From NCBI GenBank assembly GCA_022824225.1, contig JAJEAH010000083.1, forward strand, positions 1-43,331: a stretch of DNA of 43,331 nt. Reading direction: 5' to 3'. A program made the position numbers and the translations under genes. Below, piece by piece: positions 4,530 to 21,269 of this stretch (position 1 is its first letter; every line of letters starts with the position of its first letter). This stretch comes from Chloroflexota bacterium (GTDB taxonomy: Bacteria > Chloroflexota > UBA11872 > VXOZ01). The notes under the pieces were generated by a model. It was not told the origin of the DNA. It did no database searches and saw only the letters and a program-made list of their open reading frames with translations.

Positions 4530-4826
4530 TCAGTGATAGTCCTCAATTGCAATGACCACGATAGTCTTGTTGGGCGACCTGCCCTCGTACGCCACAATGA
4601 GCCTGTATTGGTCATTCAGTCTCATCGAGTGTTGATGTTTGCGTGCACCCGCTAACTTCTCGAAGTGAAAGGACTTCATCTGATAGAATGTGCGCTCGTC
4701 AGTCGCAGCTCGTATGGCCTGCATGCGCTTGCGAAATGCCCGAATGACTGCCCTCGACCACTTTCCTCTGAAGGAAGGGTCGGTCTCCAATCTTTCCAGT
4801 TCGCTGTCTTCATAGCGCACATCCAT
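4530..4826 (-). CDS. higB: HigB-family (RelE superfamily) toxin
   Basis: A 98-residue protein of the RelE/HigB fold, predicted to be a ribosome-dependent mRNA interferase neutralised by the downstream HigA. Recognisable features are the central SFHFEKLAGARKHQHSMR, the strand QYRLIVAYEG and the C-terminal VVIAIEDYH, which is typical of HigB toxins. The ATG at 4826 is preceded by GAGAG at a short spacing. The 35-bp perfect palindrome 37 bp upstream is the likely promoter-operator. A 21-residue C-terminal remnant of a second copy is found at 8429-8494. The conserved basic and His residues look intact, so I expect an active toxin. Confidence 0.85.
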   Translation of the reverse strand: MDVRYEDSELERLETDPSFRGKWSRAVIRAFRKRMQAIRAATDERTFYQMKSFHFEKLAGARKHQHSMRLNDQYRLIVAYEGRSPNKTIVVIAIEDYH

Positions 4827-4862
4827 CTCTCAACTACTGTACCTCTGCTCTGCAAGTTCTAC

Positions 4863-4897
4863 CTATACAGTATTACACTTAGTGTAATACTGTATAG
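4863..4897 (-). promoter_or_regulatory. perfect 17+1+17 palindrome, likely higBA operator
   Basis: CTATACAGTATTACACT and its exact reverse complement flank a single T. The AT-rich palindrome stands out against the GC-rich surroundings and ends 37 bp before the higB start codon. HigA proteins are known to repress their operon by binding such palindromes, so this is the natural autoregulatory site. The TATAC/GTATA ends could also supply a -10 element. I did not find a clean -35. Confidence 0.65.
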
Positions 4898-5095
4898 AGG
4901 CCATATTTAGAAGTGCGCAAACCCAATCGGAGGGAAAACCGGACGATTCGAGAACTGCACTTTGGCTCTCGGCTTTCTTAGGCGTGGGCTCTACCAGTGT
5001 AGAGTTGGCCCAAGTCCGTGCTCCGGCGCGTGATACCTCACGTCATCCACCGGTTAACAGTATAGATTGGGGGGCTCTATAGTTCCTCAAGGGTT

Positions 5096-7003
5096 TCATA
5101 GCCTCTGCGCCTCATAGAGATCCCGAAAGAGCCCCGGCTGCGCGAGCAGTGTTTGCGGCGGGCCGTCCTGCGCCAGTCTGCCCTCATCCAGCACCAGTAT
5201 GCGGTCGGCGCGCATCACCGTCACAAGCCGGTGGGCCACGACCATGGTGGTGCGCCCCTGGCGGGGGGTTTCCAGCGCGGCGCGCACCTTCAGGTCGGTG
5301 AGGGCGTCCAGTGCGGACGTCGCCTCGTCCAGCAAGAGGATGCGGGGTTGATCGAGAATCGCGCGGCAGAGCGCCAGGCGCTGGCGTTCGCCGCCGGAGA
5401 GCGCCAGACCGCGCTCCCCGACGAGCGTGTCGTAGCCATCCGGCAATGACCCAACAAAATCGTGCAGTTGCGCGGCCTTGGCGGCTGCAAGGACGCGTTC
5501 GCGCGGAATCTCGCGGGGAGGATACACAAGATTGGCGTAGATGCTGTCGTTCCAGAGGATGACATCCTGCGGCGCCAGGCCAGTCATCCTACGCAGGTGT
5601 GGGAGCGGCAGCGATTCTATGTTTGTGCCGTCCACGCGAATTAGGCCGGAGCGAGGTTCGTAGAAGCGCAGCAGGAGATCGATAATGGTACTCTTGCCGC
5701 CGCCGCTCGGCCCCACGACGCCGACAAACTCACCAGGAGCGATCCGAAACGATACACGTTCCAGGCCGAATCCCTCGCGCCCGTAATCGAAAGAGACATT
5801 TGAGAATTCGATTTCAGCGCCGTTGGGAGCGGCAGCGTCCTTGGCTGTTGTTGCTGCGCGCGTACCCGTTCGTGCTTCGACAGGCTCAGCACGAACGGGT
5901 ACTTTCGCGTCTTCGTCCAACAGACGCTCTGTATTGCCAGTGCCTCTCGCAATGTCAGCCGTTGCTTGTGCCGCAAGTCCCTTAGCGAGTGGCAAGCCAA
6001 TTTCGGTGTCGTGCCCGGCCGGAAGGCCCTCTTCACTAGGCAATTCCAGCAGAGAGTCAATGCGCTCGGCAGCGGCTTTCGCCTGACCGGTGCTGACGTA
6101 GCCGTCGAGGATGGCTTCCAGGGCTAGGTACGCACGCGGCACGTAGATGATGAATGCCACCAAGCCGCCAATGCTCAGCCGCCCGCTCATGACCTCGTAT
6201 GCGCCGTAGCCGTACACCAGCCCGACCCCGACGTTTTGGATCAGGTCCATTGGCAGTGTCAGTACCAGATTGTGGAAGGTAACGACCTTGGCCTTGATGC
6301 GCCGGTCGGCCTGTACCCAAGCGAACCAACGTGCCGTTTCATAGGGCACGGCGGTTTGAGCGCGCACGGTGCGCATGCCGGGAATCACCTCTTGTAAGTA
6401 GCTCATAGCGTGTTCTCGGCTCTGATGGAGTTCCCGGTCGATAGCTTCCGCGCGGTGCTGCATCCGGCGTGCAAAGAGATACGAGATTGGGAATACGATC
6501 AGGCTTACCAATAGCAAGCGGGTGTTGAGATAGAACATAACACCCAGCGTACCCAGCAGCATCACGGCGTTGGTGAATACGGGCAGCAGCTCATTGCTGA
6601 CGTATACTTCGCCAATTTCACCGCAGACTTTGGTGATCGTGCGTATGATGCGTCCGCTGGTAATGCGCTCCAGGTCGTGAAGCTTTGTGCGCAGCATGTG
6701 ATTGAACAGGGTTTGCCGCAGCGATTGCGAGACTGCCTCGCCAATGCTGGCGCGCAGGTAGTTCTGCACAGCTCCCAGCGCCATCGTGAGCAGCGGAAAG
6801 GTGATGATGCCAATAAGCAACGGCACGATCAGCGCGACGTTCCCGGCGGGAATCGCCTCGTCGATCAGCCGCTTGACCAGCAACGGCGAAACAAGGCTCA
6901 CGCCGGTGCTCACGATGACGAGCGCGATGATGCCCGCGATGAGGTGCGCGTGCGTGCGCAGTTGCCGCTTTACGACGTGGTAGGTCGTGAGATTGCCTCC
7001 GAT
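5096..7003 (-). CDS. ABC-type exporter, fused membrane and ATPase domains (start uncertain)
   Basis: A half-transporter of the MsbA/LmrA type that should work as a dimer in the inner membrane. The N-terminal 300 residues are the six-helix membrane domain (LIAGIIALVIVSTGVSL, TMALGAVQNYLRASIGE). The ATPase domain has Walker A GPSGGGKST, the signature LSGGERQR, Walker B ILLLDEATSALD and the switch His in VVAHRL. The linker between the domains is about 50 residues longer than usual and includes a translated repeat hairpin (5862-5902). The frame is open up to an ATG at 7216, but that extension reads through an intergenic repeat (7071-7118). A strong AAGGAGG at 7016-7010 precedes an ATG (7008) that is one frame off and stops after 12 codons. 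No ATG, GTG or TTG lies in frame near it, so I mark the start at the first in-frame codon (ATC, 7003) after that site. Substrate unknown. Confidence 0.85.
   Translation of the reverse strand: MGGNLTTYHVVKRQLRTHAHLIAGIIALVIVSTGVSLVSPLLVKRLIDEAIPAGNVALIVPLLIGIITFPLLTMALGAVQNYLRASIGEAVSQSLRQTLFNHMLRTKLHDLERITSGRIIRTITKVCGEIGEVYVSNELLPVFTNAVMLLGTLGVMFYLNTRLLLVSLIVFPISYLFARRMQHRAEAIDRELHQSREHAMSYLQEVIPGMRTVRAQTAVPYETARWFAWVQADRRIKAKVVTFHNLVLTLPMDLIQNVGVGLVYGYGAYEVMSGRLSIGGLVAFIIYVPRAYLALEAILDGYVSTGQAKAAAERIDSLLELPSEEGLPAGHDTEIGLPLAKGLAAQATADIARGTGNTERLLDEDAKVPVRAEPVEARTGTRAATTAKDAAAPNGAEIEFSNVSFDYGREGFGLERVSFRIAPGEFVGVVGPSGGGKSTIIDLLLRFYEPRSGLIRVDGTNIESLPLPHLRRMTGLAPQDVILWNDSIYANLVYPPREIPRERVLAAAKAAQLHDFVGSLPDGYDTLVGERGLALSGGERQRLALCRAILDQPRILLLDEATSALDALTDLKVRAALETPRQGRTTMVVAHRLVTVMRADRILVLDEGRLAQDGPPQTLLAQPGLFRDLYEAQRL
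5862..5902. repeat. hairpin repeat, invariant-loop family, inside the ABC gene
   Basis: Arms GTACCCGTTCGTGCT (5862-5876) and its exact complement (5888-5902) enclose the 11-nt loop TCGACAGGCTC. The element is translated in frame as about 14 residues (VPVRAEPVEARTGT) in the linker between the membrane and ATPase domains. Related hairpins with the same loop but different arms are at 14905-14939, 30040-30088 and 32666-32706. Confidence 0.85.
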
Positions 7004-7070
7004 GGCATGCCCTCCTTGATTTGGTGTAGCTACGCAGCGAGAATCAGCGCTCCTTTCTCCGGCGTACTTT

Positions 7071-7118
7071 TCTCTTGCTCCCCCTTCCTCGTTGGGAGAG
7101 GATCGGGGTGAGGGTGAC
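7071..7118. repeat. dispersed intergenic repeat fragment (GGGAGAGGATCGGGGTGAG type)
   Basis: A run of CTCCCCCTTCCTCG, GGGAGAGG and GGGGTGAGGGTGA resembles a common bacterial intergenic repeat. A shorter relative (CACCCTAACCCTCTCCCCC) lies at about 13098-13116. It is covered by the open frame upstream of the ABC gene, and this is why I do not accept the most upstream start codons for that gene. Confidence 0.45.
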
Positions 7119-7343
7119 CCACGGCGTGTCATCCGTACCGGCGGCCGGACTCTCGTACGGAAATATCGGCCCCAATTCGTGTGCGCGGGCCGCAAAACAG
7201 CCAGTATACGCGCCACGCGGGATTCGTGAAGAAACCGCCCAAACCGGCCCGGACTGGGCGCAAACGTGCGCGTGTACCGTCAAGGTGGTATACTATTAAT
7301 GCGATTGAGCGGGGCCTTGCCGCTGTCTCTGACATAAAATAGC

Positions 7344-7374
7344 AAGACACCCGGGTACATAACCCGGGTGTCTT
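7344..7374. terminator. strong Rho-independent terminator, probably bidirectional
   Basis: A perfect 13-bp stem AAGACACCCGGGT / ACCCGGGTGTCTT with loop ACATA. The plus side ends in TTTTCGTCTT and the minus side in GCTATTTTATG. On the minus strand it follows the stop codon of the nucleotidyltransferase gene by about 38 bp and is its natural terminator. On the plus strand no gene precedes it closely. Confidence 0.85.
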
Positions 7375-7411
7375 TTCGTCTTACTTTAGATAGACGCCGG
7401 CAATCACTTCT

Positions 7412-7771
7412 CTAGCATGAGCCGGAGCCTGTCGCCACATTTTCGCGCATTTCCAGATAAACGGCTTCGGTCAACACGCGATCTCTCATATACGGTGGGA
7501 GGCTGCAGCAGGTCGAAACGTCCACGTGCCGCCCGAATAGCTCCTCTAAGTAGAAGCAGAGGTCCATGTAGCCTTCCAGGGTCAGGAGTTCGTCCGCGAG
7601 TTCAACGAGCACATCCACGTCGCTCTCCGCCGTAGCCTCATCTCTGGCTACCGAGCCGTAGAGCGCGATCTTCTCTACGCCAAGACGCTTGAGGTGCGCG
7701 CGATTTGCTGTGAGCATGTTCAGAGCGTGTGATCGCGTTAGCGTTTTTGGCGACCTTCTTTTGAACGTCAT
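7412..7771 (-). CDS. MNT-type minimal nucleotidyltransferase
   Basis: A 119-residue stand-alone nucleotidyltransferase. The signature is ALYGSVARDEATAESDVDVLVE (Gly-Ser plus Asp-x-Asp) near residues 37-58, with a third acidic position in RHVDVST further on. Small proteins of this kind are usually the antitoxin (MNT) half of a HEPN/MNT pair, where they AMPylate or otherwise block the HEPN RNase. No recognisable HEPN gene is adjacent, which is unusual. The nearest gene is a divergent 100-residue protein 320 bp away. The ATG at 7771 gives the conventional N-terminus, and a strong terminator follows the gene. Confidence 0.8.
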   Translation of the reverse strand: MTFKRRSPKTLTRSHALNMLTANRAHLKRLGVEKIALYGSVARDEATAESDVDVLVELADELLTLEGYMDLCFYLEELFGRHVDVSTCCSLPPYMRDRVLTEAVYLEMRENVATGSGSC

Positions 7772-8093
7772 AGCTTACCTTCTCACAACGCAGTACGAAA
7801 CCAAACCCATTTCGCAAATTGCATAACCGCCTTCTTCATGGCAGCATGTATCCCTGCGTTTGTTATCCTACTGAGGATAGTGCAAAAATCCTACTTGAGG
7901 GATCGGAAAGTCAAGCATCACGATGAACATACGCTTCGCGGACAACGCCCTAGCAAGACTGGAAACTGAACCTTCTTTTCGTGGAAGATGGTCGCGAGCG
8001 GCAGTGGAGCGTTTTGCAGACGTATGCAGCCTATACGCGCAGCCTCCGAATGGCATACCCTGTAAACGGTTGCAATAGCATAGAGGTGAATCT
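7772..8093. other. divergent intergenic region, AT-richer than surroundings
   Basis: 322 bp between the minus-strand nucleotidyltransferase gene and the plus-strand small gene. Promoters for both should lie here. I see no convincing sigma-70 pair, hairpin or repeat, and no credible gene. The visibly lower GC of 7780-8500 fits a horizontally acquired patch. Confidence 0.4.
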
Positions 8094-15100: not shown

Positions 15101-15823
15101 ATGCGCGTACAGGCGATCGGCGCCCATCCTGACGATATCGAACTGCTGTGTGCCGGCACGTTGGCAAAGTATGCCGAACAGGGCCACCACGTGACCATGT
15201 GCTACGTCTGCAACGGCGGCCTAGGGCACGTGGAAATCATGCCGCCGGAACTGAAAGAGATTCGCAAGCAGGAATCGAAGAACAGCGCCGACGTCATCGG
15301 CGCGGACTTCCAATGGCTCGACATCGACGACGCCGACGTGCGCCAGAGCACCAACGCGGCGCTGGCGGGCTTGGTCGACGCCGTGCGTGAAGCCCAGCCG
15401 GACGTGATCATCACCCATGCGCCCAATGACTACATGGACGACCACCGCCTGGTGGGCGAACTGGTGCTGAAAGCCAGCTTCGATGCCACCATTCCGCATT
15501 ACGATTCCAAGCAGGAAAACCCCGCGCAACTCGTGCCCATCTTCCACATGGATACCCTGATGGGCGTGGACTTCCTGCCGGAAATGTGGGTGGACATCAG
15601 CGAGACCATCGAGACGAAACGCCAGATGCTGGCGTGCCACGAGAGCCAGTACGCCTGGCTGAAGGAACACGACAACATCGACTACATTGACTCGATGGTC
15701 ACCGTGGCCAAGTACCGGGGCCTGCAAGTCGGCACGCCCTACGCGGAAGGCTTCCGCCAGGTGCGCGTCTGGGGCCGCACGACGACGGTGCCCCTGCTGC
15801 CGACGGACATTGCGCGCGGGTAG
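15101..15823 (+). CDS. PIG-L/LmbE family deacetylase
   Basis: A zinc-dependent N-acetyl hydrolase of 240 residues, the family that includes GlcNAc-inositol, bacillithiol and mycothiol deacetylases. The zinc and catalytic motif AHPDDIE is at residues 8-14. A second conserved segment, THAPNDYMDDHRLVG, contains the downstream histidines. The start ATG has GGAGGAGC at good spacing and a TATAAT further up. There is no signal peptide, so it should be cytoplasmic. The substrate cannot be told from the sequence; a sugar-linked or thiol-linked acetamide is typical of the family. Neighbours are unrelated, so it is probably monocistronic. Confidence 0.9.
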   Translation: MRVQAIGAHPDDIELLCAGTLAKYAEQGHHVTMCYVCNGGLGHVEIMPPELKEIRKQESKNSADVIGADFQWLDIDDADVRQSTNAALAGLVDAVREAQPDVIITHAPNDYMDDHRLVGELVLKASFDATIPHYDSKQENPAQLVPIFHMDTLMGVDFLPEMWVDISETIETKRQMLACHESQYAWLKEHDNIDYIDSMVTVAKYRGLQVGTPYAEGFRQVRVWGRTTTVPLLPTDIARG

Positions 15824-15864
15824 CAATCGTGTAAGTTCCCGGCTTTCAGGTTAGCAAGTGAGGT

Positions 15865-16272
15865 TTAGCCTGGCTCAATTGGTGAGTCAACAACAGCAAG
15901 CAACTCGCGAAACACATACAGTCTCGGCCACGATTCTGGTCGAAATTCGACTATCCCCAGGCCAGCGAGTCGGTCAAGTATCCGTCTGGCGCCCGCGGGT
16001 GAAATGTTCAAGAGTCGTGCCGCTGTTGGCGCAGTCATGAACGGCCTCTCGAAGAGCGTTTCGAGCAGCATGAGGGCATTCGCCGACTCGCGGTTGTTCT
16101 GTAGTAAATCTCTCATGTTGTCGTGGAGGCCTCGCAAGCGCCGAGCGCGGTGCAGGGCATCGCGGGCCTGTTCAACGACGCCATCGAGAAAATACCCAAT
16201 CCAGGTCTGCCAGTCTCCGGTCGCGCTTACTCTGAATAGGTGGTCGTAGTAGGCGTGTTTGTCTCGCTCGAA
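15865..16272 (-). pseudogene. Fic family protein, C-terminal remnant
   Basis: The frame, read leftwards from 16272, starts FERDKHAYYDHLFRVSATG and continues GDWQTWIGYFLDGVVEQA, then a winged-helix domain with LFERPFMTAPTAARLLNIS, ending at the stop 15865-15867. This is the well-conserved C-terminal half of Fic-domain AMP-transferases that carry a helical linker and a DNA-binding wing. A TGA lies immediately before FERDKH. Just upstream another frame reads LSPSF, the expected preceding segment, so an 11-base insertion seems to have broken the gene. The Fic core (HPFxxGNGR) is missing; the gene was cut close to the cas3 start. It is about 136 codons of an expected 350-380. Confidence 0.85.
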
Positions 16273-16340
16273 TCAGGCGCGAAGCTAGGGGAGAGGCAAG
16301 GCGAGCACGTTCTTGGCGCAGAGAGAGAAAGTAGACTCTC

Positions 16341-18938
16341 ATGGAGAACAGGTCTCGCACAAAGCGGTTCTGGGGCAAGGCGGACCGCCAGGACCGCAGC
16401 CGCGTCCATTTGCTGGAGCATCACCTGGCGGACGTGGGCGCGTGCTTTGAGGTTTTGCTGGAACAACCGCTAATCCGGCGGCGGCTCGCGCACACCGCGG
16501 GGCGGCAGGACCTTGACGCCGCAACGCGGGCGCGGCTGTGTGTGCTCGCTGCCTTGCACGACATCGGCAAAGTGAACGCCGGGTTTCAGACACAGATTTG
16601 GGACGATGCCGATTTCCCGCCGGGAACGCGCAGGCCGGGCCGCGCTGGGCACACGCTGGATTTGACGCCGGTGTTGTGCGATGAGGACAGCGAAACGGCC
16701 GGCTGGTTCTTCGACGCTTTGGGTTGGTGGAATCACCTGTTGACGTGGGACGACCGGGACGGCGCAACCGTGTGCGGGCTGTTCGTCGCCGCGCTTTCGC
16801 ACCACGGCCGGCCGCTGCAGCTAGATGGCATCAAGCAGCACAACCCGCGAATCTGGCGTCCGTTTGGCGCGTTGAATCCGCCGGAATACACGCGGCGCGT
16901 CGGCCGGATGCTGCGCAAGTGGTTCCCGGAGGCTTTTGCTCCCGCGGGGGAGCCGCTGCCGTCTGCGCCGGAGTTCCAGCATCACTTCCTCGGCCTGTGC
17001 AACCTTGCCGACTGGATCGGGTCCAATGAAGCATGGTTCACGTACCTGGACGAGCCCCGGGATGACTACATCGCCGACGCGCGCGAGTCGGCGCGTCAAG
17101 CCATCCGCATCGCCGGTCTGTGCGTAACAACGCAACGGCAGAAGGTCATCAGGACCGGAGCGCCGGACTTTGCGGGGTTGTTCCCGCACATCGAGCGGCC
17201 CAATGCCATTCAACGTGCGGCCCGCGATGCGCCGCTCAGGGAGCCGCTGGTCATCATCGAGTCGGAGACCGGCTCCGGCAAGACCGAGGCCGCGCTGTGG
17301 CGGTTTGCCGAGTTGTATGCCGCCGGCCTGGTGGACGGGCTGTACTTCGCTCTGCCCACCCGCGCCGCCGCCGCGCAGATTCACAGGCGGGTGCGCCGTC
17401 TCGCCGCCCGGCTGTTCCCGGCCGGCGCGACTCCTGAGACTGTGCTGGCCGTGCCGGGCTACCTGCAAGCCGGCGACGTTACCGGCCATCACTTGCAGGA
17501 TTATCAAGTCTGGTGGGACGACCACGCCGCCGACGGGCGTCGTTGGGCCGCGGAGAGTCCCAAGCGGTTCCTCGCCGCGCAAATCGCCGTGGGCACAGTT
17601 GACCAGGTCTTGCTGGGTTCGTTGAAGGTGAAGAACGCCCACATGCGGGCCGCGAGCCTGGCCCGCAATCTGCTGGTGGTGGACGAGGTCCACGCTTCCG
17701 ACGCCTACATGCGCGAGATATTGGGGGCGGGGCTGGAGGCGCACCTCGACGCCGGCGGTTACGCCCTGCTCATGTCGGCCACGTTGGGAGCGGTGGCCCG
17801 ACGGAAGTGGCTGGGCGCTGACGACACGAATTCGCTGGCCGATGCTATCAACGTCCCCTATCCCGCTGTTAGCGCGCGCAGCGCAACCGTCGCTGCCGGC
17901 GAAAACGGCCAGGCCAAAACCGTTCGCATGGAAAGCCGCCCCATCATGCGCGAGCCGCCGGCTGTCGCCCAAATCGCGTTGGCTGCCGCCCGCGCCGGGG
18001 CCAAAGTCCTGGTGGTGCGCAATACGGTCGATTACGCGGTCAATGCGTGGCAAGCCGTGGCGGAATTGGCCAATGACGAGGTGGAAATCCTGCTGCACCA
18101 TGGCCGCTATGCCGCTGCCGACCGGAAGCATCTGGATTCTTGCGTGGAGGCGCTGCTGGGTAAGGACAAGCGACCGGAGGGCGGCTGCGTGGCGGTGGGT
18201 ACGCAGACGCTGGAGCAGTCGCTGGACATCGACGCCGACCTGCTCATCACCGACCTGTGCCCCGCCGACGTGCTGCTGCAACGCATCGGCCGGCTGCATC
18301 GCCATGACCGGCACGACCGGCCGCCGGACTACGCCGCGCCGCAGTGCATCGTGCTGACGCCGGCGTGTAACGACTTGTCGCCGCTGCTGGCGGGCGGCCG
18401 GGATGCCAACGGCCTGGGGCCGCATGGCGGCGTCTATGAGGACCTGCGGATTTTGCAGGCAACGCTGGGGCTGGTTGCCGAACATCCGCAGTGGGAAATA
18501 CCGGCGATGAACCGGGAACTGGTGGAGCGGGCGACCCATCCGGAGGAGCTTGCGGCCATAGAGACCAGGGGCGACGCCTGGAAAGAGCACGGCATCGAGG
18601 TCAAGGGCGGCGAGATCGGCGACTGGCAAACGGCGGGCAACGCCACAATCCGCCGTGATAGAAGCTTCTTCGAGGACAACCGCGAGATGCTGTTTCCCCC
18701 GGACGACGAGCGCATTCGCACCCGCCTGGGCGACGACCGGGTGGACATCGCGTTCAGCCCGCAGCCGGCCAGCCCTTTCCATGGCGCGCCGATCGAGCGC
18801 ATCGCTATGAGCGTGCGCTGGTTGTCAGGCGAGGAGCTACCGGAGAAAGTGGAAACGGCCCCAATAGACGGCGGGTTCGAATTCGCCGTGGGACCGCGCC
18901 GGTTCCGCTACGACCGGCTGGGCCTGCGGCGGGTGTAG
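16341..18938 (+). CDS. cas3: CRISPR-associated nuclease-helicase Cas3
   Basis: 865 residues. An N-terminal HD nuclease domain has His28 (LLEHHLAD), the HD pair at 73-74 (AALHDIGK) and a later HHGRPLQ. It is followed by a superfamily 2 helicase with Walker A SETGSGKTEAA near 307-316, the DEVH box VVDEVHASD near 443, the SAT motif LMSATLG, GTQTLEQSLDIDAD and motif VI QRIGRLHRH near 645. Cas3 degrades DNA bound by Cascade in type I CRISPR interference. All motifs look intact and the length is normal for type I-E. No Cascade gene (cse1, cse2, cas7, cas5, cas6) or cas1/cas2 is present. The flanks are a broken fic gene and degenerate I-E repeats. A 653-codon frame on the other strand is a shadow. 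Confidence 0.93.
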   Translation: MENRSRTKRFWGKADRQDRSRVHLLEHHLADVGACFEVLLEQPLIRRRLAHTAGRQDLDAATRARLCVLAALHDIGKVNAGFQTQIWDDADFPPGTRRPGRAGHTLDLTPVLCDEDSETAGWFFDALGWWNHLLTWDDRDGATVCGLFVAALSHHGRPLQLDGIKQHNPRIWRPFGALNPPEYTRRVGRMLRKWFPEAFAPAGEPLPSAPEFQHHFLGLCNLADWIGSNEAWFTYLDEPRDDYIADARESARQAIRIAGLCVTTQRQKVIRTGAPDFAGLFPHIERPNAIQRAARDAPLREPLVIIESETGSGKTEAALWRFAELYAAGLVDGLYFALPTRAAAAQIHRRVRRLAARLFPAGATPETVLAVPGYLQAGDVTGHHLQDYQVWWDDHAADGRRWAAESPKRFLAAQIAVGTVDQVLLGSLKVKNAHMRAASLARNLLVVDEVHASDAYMREILGAGLEAHLDAGGYALLMSATLGAVARRKWLGADDTNSLADAINVPYPAVSARSATVAAGENGQAKTVRMESRPIMREPPAVAQIALAAARAGAKVLVVRNTVDYAVNAWQAVAELANDEVEILLHHGRYAAADRKHLDSCVEALLGKDKRPEGGCVAVGTQTLEQSLDIDADLLITDLCPADVLLQRIGRLHRHDRHDRPPDYAAPQCIVLTPACNDLSPLLAGGRDANGLGPHGGVYEDLRILQATLGLVAEHPQWEIPAMNRELVERATHPEELAAIETRGDAWKEHGIEVKGGEIGDWQTAGNATIRRDRSFFEDNREMLFPPDDERIRTRLGDDRVDIAFSPQPASPFHGAPIERIAMSVRWLSGEELPEKVETAPIDGGFEFAVGPRRFRYDRLGLRRV

Positions 18939-19085
18939 CCCCGGTTGACTGAGGCTGCGCTCGGATTGACAGAAAATGCGGCCCCGCAACGACTTCAAGG
19001 CTGTGCCTCCTGACCCCCCAGAGCGATGTGGTTGAGCTTCGCTAGAATTGACAATAGCCCATTGACCCCTAGGAAGAGTCTGAAC

Positions 19086-19235
19086 TACTTGGCAAAGGCA
19101 TCGGGGATAGACCGGACGTAAGGGCGTGAAGGGAAAGATGAAGACGGTTCCCCCGCAGACGCGGGGATAGACCGTATATCATATTGGCTTGACGAGGTTT
19201 GTAATGCGTTCCCCCGCACATGTGGGGGTAGACCG
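19086..19235 (-). CRISPR. degenerate type I-E CRISPR cluster, three repeats
   Basis: 29-bp repeats at 19146-19174 and 19207-19235, with a decayed copy at 19086-19114 in which only TCGGGGATAGACCG is kept. The spacers are 31 and 32 bp, giving a 60-61 bp period. Read on the minus strand the repeat begins CGGTCTATCCCCGCG and holds the GC-rich dyad (CCCCGC/GCGGGG) of I-E repeats. The third copy has CACATGTGGGGG in its centre. The cluster starts about 147 bp after cas3. Several mutations in each repeat suggest the array is old. Confidence 0.85.
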
Positions 19236-19379
19236 CGGCCAGCTAATAAGCTCGTAACGGCGGTCATCGCGCTTGCGTTCGCAATCGCTGCCGCGCTTGG
19301 TTACGCAGACCCCGGCGAGCAGCAAGCCGTCAGCGGGTTGGTCGAGTCGTTGTTTGCGGAAAGGTCATGGAGGCGTACT
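19236..19379 (+). other. open stretch fused to a CRISPR repeat, phage-like membrane segment
   Basis: Directly after the third CRISPR repeat the plus strand reads RPANKLVTAVIALAFA then a Gly/Ala-rich hydrophobic helix and GEQQAVSGLVESLFAER, in the frame of the following lipoprotein. Short holin-like phage proteins have this look. There is no start codon, so it is probably the 3' part of a gene whose 5' part was lost at the repeat. Identity is uncertain. Confidence 0.4.
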
Positions 19380-19793
19380 ATGAGAAGACTCTTCGCGGTT
19401 CTGGCGTTGTTGGCGCTCGCAGGTTGCAGTTCTGACGCGGAGATTGCATCCCGCAATTTGTCGCAGGCGGCAGACCAATTTGAGATTAGCCGCCGCATCG
19501 TGTTCTACAACGGCATCACAGATTCCTACATGCTGGTGATCGAAGGCCGGTGCTCCATCTTTGAGGACAGAGCAGGCGGCTCGGCGCAACTTGAAGTGAC
19601 GTGCAAAGTCGGCGACGACGCTTACAAGAAGCACTTCCTGGGCCTGAGCGATAACGTGACCTACTTCGCGGAACAGCGGGACGCGGCCGACGTGAGCGCA
19701 TTCCACTATCGGGTCACGTTCAAGCCACAGCAAATCGTCCCTGACATTGACATCCGCGTAGACCCCGGTGACGGGCCGCGGAGCCAGCCGTGA
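19380..19793 (+). CDS. phage-type beta-sandwich lipoprotein
   Basis: 137 residues from the ATG at 19380, which has TGGAGG upstream. The N-terminus MRRLFAVLALLALAGCSSD is a lipoprotein signal with lipobox LAGC, so the mature protein would be lipid-anchored outside the membrane. The body contains SQAADQFEISRRIVFYNGI, a GRCS-x-CKVGDDAYKKHFLGLSDNVTY block and YRVTFKPQQIVPDIDIRV. From memory this closely resembles a small lipoprotein family encoded by many tailed phages of Actinobacteria and Proteobacteria; its role is unknown. It is flanked on both sides by CRISPR repeats, so the gene looks like captured or inserted phage DNA. The open frame continues upstream to a TTG, but the signal peptide fixes the start. 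Confidence 0.75.
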   Translation: MRRLFAVLALLALAGCSSDAEIASRNLSQAADQFEISRRIVFYNGITDSYMLVIEGRCSIFEDRAGGSAQLEVTCKVGDDAYKKHFLGLSDNVTYFAEQRDAADVSAFHYRVTFKPQQIVPDIDIRVDPGDGPRSQP

Positions 19794-19842
19794 GATAGGT
19801 GTTTCGTGCCATAGTGGGAGGCAGCGCAGGCACAGCGACCAA

Positions 19843-19932
19843 TCTCCCCCCGCACACGCGGGGATAGACCGGGCACTCGGGCTACAATCGGCATTGAATA
19901 CGCGGTTCCCCCGCACGCGCGGGGATAGACCC
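19843..19932 (-). CRISPR. CRISPR cluster, two type I-E repeats
   Basis: 29-bp repeats at 19843-19871 and 19904-19932 enclose one 32-bp spacer (19872-19903). Repeat and period match the cluster at 19086-19235 and the orientation is the same, so both are parts of one former array. The distance between the clusters (607 bp) is not a multiple of the 61-bp unit. The last repeat ends in ACCC instead of ACCG. Confidence 0.85.
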
Positions 19933-20155: not shown

Positions 20156-20229
20156 TGGCTGGGGAACCAGGATTCGAACCTGGACTTATGGATCCAGAAT
20201 CCACTGTCCTACCATTAGACGATTCCCCA
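20156..20229 (-). tRNA. tRNA-Gln (anticodon CTG)
   Basis: Read from 20229, the acceptor TGGGGAA pairs with TTCCCCA; then follow G and an encoded CCA. The D-arm is GTCTAATGGTAGGAC, the anticodon stem GTGGA/TCCAT with loop TTCTGGA, and the T-arm CCAGG-TTCGAAT-CCTGG. The anticodon CTG reads CAG codons. The discriminator G and the sequence agree with bacterial tRNA-Gln. It lies 224 bp from the last CRISPR repeat; tRNA genes are common integration sites. Confidence 0.95.
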
Positions 20230-20455
20230 AGGCGGCTAGCGCTCGCACACAGACCGTACCGGCACACGGCGATTACTGCCGTACGTTCGCGTGCAGCGGA
20301 GCCAATTTCATGGTACTAAGGCGCTCGGACTCTCGTCAACAGGGCGGAGAATATGAGGCTAGCCGGTTTGGGCTTGTAGCCTGTGCAAGCGGCGTTGCCA
20401 AGTCCTGCCAGGGGCAGCCAAGTCCTGCCCAGGGCGGCTAGGTCATTTGGGGCAT

Positions 20456-20631
20456 AGCAGAATGTCGATCCAAGCGAAGCCGAATGTCGATCCGGGCGTA
20501 GCAGAGCGTCGGTCCAGGCATAGCAGAATGCCGATTCAGGCGTAGCAGAGCGTCGGTCCGGGCGTAGCAAAATGTCGATCCGGGCGTAGTTGAATGTCAT
20601 TCCGAGCGCAGTTCAATGTCATTCCGAGTGG
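20456..20631. repeat. 22-bp tandem array, eight units
   Basis: Units begin AGCAGAATGTCGATCC and end GGGCGT. They change gradually along the array; the last two read AATGTCATTCCGAGCGC, which is the tip of the dispersed palindromic element that starts right after. It lies in the 1040-bp gene-free gap 20230-21269, which otherwise holds the element at about 20610-20810 and the next array. I see no gene in this gap. Confidence 0.85.
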
Positions 20632-20788
20632 AGCGAGGAATCTAGAGTCCGCGTCTCAACCAGGCCGCAGCGGCTCGCGCCCCAGACCCCGCGCGCCAAG
20701 CGGAGCGAGGAATCTCATTCGCGGAATACAGAGTCCGCGTCTCAACCGTCGCAGTTGGCCCGGCACCTTAGATTCCTCACTGCGCTGC

Positions 20789-20950
20789 GCTCCGTTCGGA
20801 ATGACAGGTGCATGCGCTCCGTTCGGAATGACAGGTGCATGTGCTCCGTTCGGAATGACAGGTGCATGCGCTCCGTTCGGAATGACATGGGCATGCGCTC
20901 CGTTCGGAATGACATGGGCATGCGCTTCGTTCGGAATGACAGGTGCACAT
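20789..20950. repeat. 27-bp tandem array, six units
   Basis: The unit GCTCCGTTCGGAATGACAGG plus TGCATGC is repeated six times with few changes (CATGGGC in units four and five). Its core TTCGGAATGACA is the right tip of the palindromic element at about 20610-20810. Because 27 is a multiple of three, all frames stay open, which explains several long spurious open frames here. Confidence 0.9.
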
Positions 20951-21269
20951 GCGGTGCGTGGTACCGATGCTCCGTGTGACCGCCTGCCGTGCACAACGAG
21001 CCGGACAACGAATTGCCATGCGCTACGTGCCGGACAACGAATTGCACTGAATAGGGCGCGTACGACCGGTACGTTGCGGGAAAGTCTACCCACCGCCGCG
21101 TGCGCAGGCTACACTAGTAAGGTGGCACAACGGCCGGCTCCCGCCGGCGCCGGCTCTTCGGGATTGATTCCGGCCTGCGCCGCGCAGCCACGACCGTCCG
21201 GGATGACGTAAATCCACAACGCGGGGCGCAAGCGAACGTACCTGAAGGAACGGACAACCGACACGACCT

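Follow-up and report, generated by a model that had tools for sequence, protein, structure and literature searches.

How did an intact gene of a phage-typical family come to lie between two repeats of a short chromosomal CRISPR array? This question is raised by a contig of a Chloroflexota bacterium (assembly GCA_022824225.1, contig JAJEAH010000083.1, positions 1 to 43,331; this whole stretch of 43,331 nucleotides is referred to as the window). The coordinates of the features discussed are given in Table 1. As described below, the presence of an intact foreign phage gene inside a reduced type I-E array is real, and several routes by which it may have arrived there are considered.

Table 1. Features of the CRISPR locus and its insert in the window
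Feature	Position	Strand	Remarks
cas3e	16341..18938	+	Intact, 865 aa, HD nuclease and helicase; the locus has no other cas gene
Gap between cas3 and array	18939..19099		A complete operon would hold cas8e to cas2 and the leader here (cf. L037)
R1, 3' half of repeat	19102..19113	+	Probable deletion junction
Repeat R2	19147..19174	+	Single change, in hairpin loop
Repeat R3	19208..19235	+	Deviations only at positions 14, 16 and 21 (insert-facing half); hairpin kept
Foreign insert between R3 and R4	19236..19843	+	608 bp; no target-site duplication or terminal inverted repeat
Lipoprotein gene (PF25682 / phrog_478)	19380..19793	+	137 aa, lipobox cysteine 16
Repeat R4	19844..19871	+	Deviations only at positions 1 and 3 (insert-facing end)
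Repeat R5	19905..19931	+	Single change, in hairpin loop
tRNA-Gln(CTG)	20156..20229	-	Bounds the variable region with cas3 and the array

A reduced type I-E locus beside tRNA-Gln

No cas genes other than cas3 were found in the window. The encoded protein matches profiles PF18019 and PF22590 as well as the PADLOC Cas3e model (E = 1.3e-165), and an alignment with three relatives revealed that its HD, Walker A, DEVH and QRIGRLHRH motifs are retained. Cas1 (PF01867) and Cas7 (PF09344) were sought in the assembled genome, which is 95% complete, and neither gave a match; the same search detected both proteins in the congener G002. This is a type I-E system reduced to cas3e and a short array.

G002 contains a complete type I-E operon (L037), with the gene order cas3-cas8e-cas11-cas7-cas5-cas6e-cas1-cas2-array and a Cas3e that is 62% identical to the protein encoded here. 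The two loci share the same repeat family (~28 nt), ~33-nt spacers and a 61-bp period. They differ in that L037 has 37 identical repeats, whereas in the window cas3e is accompanied by four and a half non-identical ones. The gap between cas3 and the array showed no similarity to cas8e or to the leaders of two relatives, and no remnants of the cas8e-cas2 genes were found between cas3 and R1. A related cas3, split and with an in-frame TAG, was observed in another genome of the class (L021 / L010; G028:C15:13690-16310).

In four congeners, the interval from the gene at 15101-15823 (or from the gene that follows it) to tRNA-Gln holds other sequence, and therefore cas3 and the array constitute a variable region next to this tRNA gene. 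The flanks of the region are syntenic in the congeners. No duplicate of the tRNA-Gln end, of the kind expected of an att site, was found at the far end of the region. The gene that precedes cas3 (15826-16324) looks Fic-like; its counterparts in the congeners are longer, and what is present here is the C-terminal portion, cut off just before cas3.

Repeats and geometry of the array

The first-pass annotation had described five 29-bp repeats in the same direction with periods of 60-61 bp. Four direct repeats (R2 to R5) were borne out, with start-to-start spacings of 61, 636 and 61 bp. Only 12-13 nt from the 3' part of a repeat (CGGGGATAGACC) make up the fifth, R1 (near 19086), placed 60 bp before R2, and the sequence in place of its 5' half is unrelated; the start of the array at this half repeat is probably a deletion junction. 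The interval between R3 and R4, previously given as 607 bp, is real and measures 608 bp.

R2 to R5 match their consensus, GTTCCCCCGCACACGCGGGGATAGACC, at 25-27 of 28 positions, compared with 18 of 28 for the best non-array site in the window. In a genome-wide pattern search that allowed up to 3 mismatches, the consensus repeat was confined to this locus in the 3.37-Mb genome, and the quality of the four repeats is not a product of chance. The palindromic repeats of 28-29 nt and the spacers of ~32-33 nt are those of a type I-E array. The sequences of R2, R3, R4 and R5 are all distinct, R3 and R4 differing at 5 of 27 positions. Neutral decay of the repeats (~7%) was considered as the source of this variation and dropped: R2 and R5 are altered only in the hairpin loop, and all four repeats form intact hairpins.

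Excision of the R3-to-R4 interval gives back the exact 61-bp period, with no spacer missing, so that the register of the array is kept on both sides of the insert. The idea that R4 and R5 form a second array with its own leader was rejected, as comparison with the leaders of two relatives showed no similarity. The exact core of spacer S1 was sought in viral contigs and was not found.

The insert carries an intact lipoprotein gene of a phage family

The single complete ORF of the insert, preceded by an RBS-like GGAGG, encodes a protein that matches PF25682 over its full length (178 bits against a gathering cut-off of 27, E = 6e-53) and also phrog_478 (E = 6.6e-52). It has a signal peptide with the lipobox LALAGC, whose cysteine is invariant in the alignment. 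All 50 strongly conserved positions (those with at least 90% conservation among 146 relatives) are retained, and the gene is therefore intact.

The earlier suggestion that this is a complete lipoprotein gene of a phage-typical family was upheld: the family occurs in 799 phage records, and alignment identified proteins with 60-70% identity in phages of Mycobacterium, Delftia, Pseudomonas, Vibrio, Paenibacillus, Rhizobium and others. Among 400 Chloroflexota genomes, it was detected only in the source genome and was absent from the 399 others. Since the family is phage-typical and missing from these relatives, the insert is foreign to the host lineage. The GC and GC3 values of the insert and of the gene are not extreme.

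In the three phages inspected, the lipoprotein gene is situated among small early-region genes, outside the lysis module, with replication genes nearby in two of them. The gene of the window resembles the PF25682 protein of Mycobacterium phage VG64 and phrog_478 in its full-length match and conserved positions, but its setting is a CRISPR array of the chromosome, not the early region of a phage. Nothing observed here supports the PHROG label "RDF" (recombination directionality factor), which is doubtful for this protein because of its lipobox and predicted exported beta-rich domain. The modelled fold comprises a helix and a six-strand sheet (pLDDT 77, middling); a fold search with this model gave no match at E 0.001, and a sequence search for a solved structure of the protein found none. 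A role in superinfection exclusion would be a guess from the lipoprotein nature and phage distribution of the family.

The part of the insert upstream of the gene (~19238-19379) had been annotated as a truncated phage-like membrane frame. This description was not confirmed, as holin and spanin profiles scored only E 0.02-0.07 and the frame has no relatives in phage collections, and its identification as a holin or spanin was rejected. No counterpart of this frame was present next to the lipoprotein gene in 146 related loci.

Single copies of the array repeat in viral contigs

A strict search of viral contigs for the I-E repeat retrieved one contig, L218 (IMGVR_UViG_3300049728_000129), with a solitary repeat at 5386-5412 that is identical to the window consensus at 27 of 27 nt. 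Under a simple base model, ~7e-6 such matches are expected by chance. The contig also has terminase- and portal-like ORFs. A looser search added close single copies in L219 (an 86.7-kb record) and L224; matches in L222 and L223, obtained in the same search, could be due to chance.

These single copies of the I-E repeat are solitary repeat units (SRUs), a known feature of phages; SRUs are covered, together with mini-arrays and proposed SRU-repeat recombination, in the review PMC8616872. They likewise recall RNA anti-CRISPRs (Racrs), whose function is addressed in PMC10651486. The repeats of the window differ in belonging to a chromosomal array. The solitary repeat of L218 is a candidate RNA anti-CRISPR.

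None of six viral records that carry SRUs or arrays, mostly fragments, contained the lipoprotein family (0/6). Conversely, a search of 146 related loci for solitary repeats of eight common types close to the gene gave nothing beyond chance, except for the I-F array of L125 described below. A source phage with adjacent lipoprotein gene and SRU was thus found neither among the SRU records (mostly fragments) nor among the lipoprotein-bearing phage loci examined.

Origin of the insert

The first-pass annotation knew of no standard mechanism for such an arrangement. This was not supported, as three routes are on record. Faure et al. 2019, as quoted in PMC8616872, proposed that SRUs recombine with repeats of CRISPR loci; the same review quotes Varble et al. 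2019 for recombination between spacer and protospacer; and PMC10434264 cites, by title, the integration of prophages into CRISPR loci (Varble et al. 2021). The two cases of Varble et al., as cited there, share with the window the presence of phage DNA inside a CRISPR array, but here a single phage gene is found, without an integrase or att repeat. Of the integration, array-phage recombination and oversized acquisition that had been offered as explanations, recombination fits best and oversized acquisition is disfavoured.

We tentatively favour, with somewhat less than even confidence, the view that a phage with a solitary host repeat recombined with the array and left the lipoprotein gene between R3 and R4. 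A type I-E locus acquired horizontally beside tRNA-Gln would have shrunk to cas3e and a short array. A single crossover between an SRU carried by a phage and one repeat of the array would then have placed phage DNA between two hybrid repeats, of which R3 would join a host 5' part to a phage 3' part and R4 a phage 5' part to a host 3' part. The bulk of this DNA would have been lost later, leaving 608 bp with one intact gene, perhaps kept by selection. This second, deletional step is needed because the remaining phage DNA is gone. We infer these events, since no phage with both the gene and an SRU was found.

Such a crossover predicts phage DNA between hybrid repeats, a preserved array register and the existence of phages with SRUs of this kind. 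In its favour are the foreign, phage-typical nature of the gene, the restored register, the single repeats of L218, L219 and L224, the earlier proposal of SRU-repeat recombination (PMC8616872), and the occurrence of the gene family beside a different array in L166 (see below). All five deviations of R3 and R4 face the insert, which fits one breakpoint between positions 4 and 13. The hybrid-repeat pattern is nevertheless weak, because random placement of the changes would produce it with P ~0.08; this value and the lack of a viral record pairing gene and SRU count against the crossover. If true, it would provide a sequence footprint of the previously proposed integration of phages into arrays via phage-borne repeats, testable by looking for foreign stretches flanked by hybrid repeats in arrays, and would be a second consequence of SRUs besides RNA anti-CRISPR action.

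Next in rank comes the entry of a stray phage gene, by illegitimate or transposition-like insertion, into a reduced array under little constraint, the position between repeats being incidental; we consider this possible, though unlikely. It is simple, insertions should be tolerated in a locus without Cas1 and Cas7 whose repeats vary, and a PF25682 gene stands alone between hairpin repeats elsewhere (L124). PMC2886076 also describes degraded I-E loci, wear of terminal repeats and an array interrupted by an IS. On the other hand, the insert has neither the ends of a transposed segment nor a recognisable transposase, and its removal restores the register exactly. Insertion of an IS was rejected on the same grounds (no duplication, no inverted ends, no transposase ORF in the insert). 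If true, plain insertion would represent another gene capture in a reduced CRISPR locus. Somewhat less probable still is recombination through a spacer, in which the 33 bp after R3 would be a phage-derived spacer that recombined with its protospacer, a later deletion leaving the gene before R4. As expected of a spacer, the insert does start directly at the edge of the repeat, and there is the precedent of Varble et al. 2019 (quoted in PMC8616872). However, a search for phage sequences matching the first bases of the insert found none, the deletion would have to end near R4, and only the left border is accounted for, which leaves the altered 5' end of R4 unexplained.

The false joining of phage DNA to the array at a repeat during assembly has to be weighed as well, given that this is a metagenome-type contig of a genome in 87 contigs and that both borders fall at repeats. 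We regard it as very doubtful, though conceivable at the inner borders: R2 to R5 are all distinct and occur nowhere else in the genome, which makes a mix-up of short repeats unlikely, both flanks of the region show conserved synteny with congeners, and the GC and GC3 of insert and gene are unremarkable. Acquisition by Cas1-Cas2 of a 608-bp phage fragment as one giant spacer would account for repeats bounding the insert on both sides, yet appears extremely unlikely. Cas1-Cas2 integration duplicates the leader-end repeat, and the repeats flanking the insert would therefore be expected to be identical, but R3 and R4 are not; moreover, prespacers are normally trimmed to ruler length, and Cas1 was not found in the genome.

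Lipoprotein genes of the family beside other arrays

Two of 66 genome loci with a PF25682 gene have it near an array, which exceeds our expectation and provides a lead. In L166, a contig of a sponge gammaproteobacterial MAG (JAPPND010000210.1), 31 bp separate the end of the gene from a 34-repeat array that belongs to another type; the whole arrangement spans 4761-7834. Two copies of the 10-mer GATGAGGCCC, nearly the core of the repeat, stand just ahead of the gene, with no others in the 17.5 kb of non-array contig, which suggests that worn repeats are also present on this side of the gene. Alignment of the full-length repeat to this region is weaker, its score being reached by 0.7% of background windows. 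No SRU of the L166 repeat was found in viral contigs, and the lipoprotein family was detected in 3 of 369 sampled genomes of this organism's class.

In L125 (Phytohalomonas), the PF25682 gene lies 2.3 kb from a worn I-F array at 2303-2686. Several of the seven repeats of this array are altered, and no cas genes were seen within ~15 kb on one side of it. In L124, G/C-rich hairpin repeats (ACCCCCCTGTCAAGGGGGGGTAGGGGGG) at 4828-4855, 5461-5488 and 5623-5650 enclose the gene. The notion of a general mobile cassette flanked by direct repeats was rejected, as such repeats accompany the gene at few loci only and are mostly host hairpin repeats.

An extension of the SRU crossover would be that phage SRUs act as landing sites into host arrays and that the lipoprotein gene adjoins SRUs in its phages, so that it has repeatedly been left in or beside arrays (the window and L166). 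We consider this quite improbable; if true, the proposed route would have left a natural footprint, and a phage gene would recur in CRISPR loci.

Other features of the window

At 5096-7216, the window encodes a 706-aa protein for which PADLOC gave weak matches to the MADS defence components mad3 and mad8. Units of 22 bp and 27 bp (CATTCCGAGCG / TGCGCTCCGTTCGGAATGACA) are repeated in tandem at 20429-20974; parts of them recur at ~100 places in the genome, and also in congeners and at contig ends.
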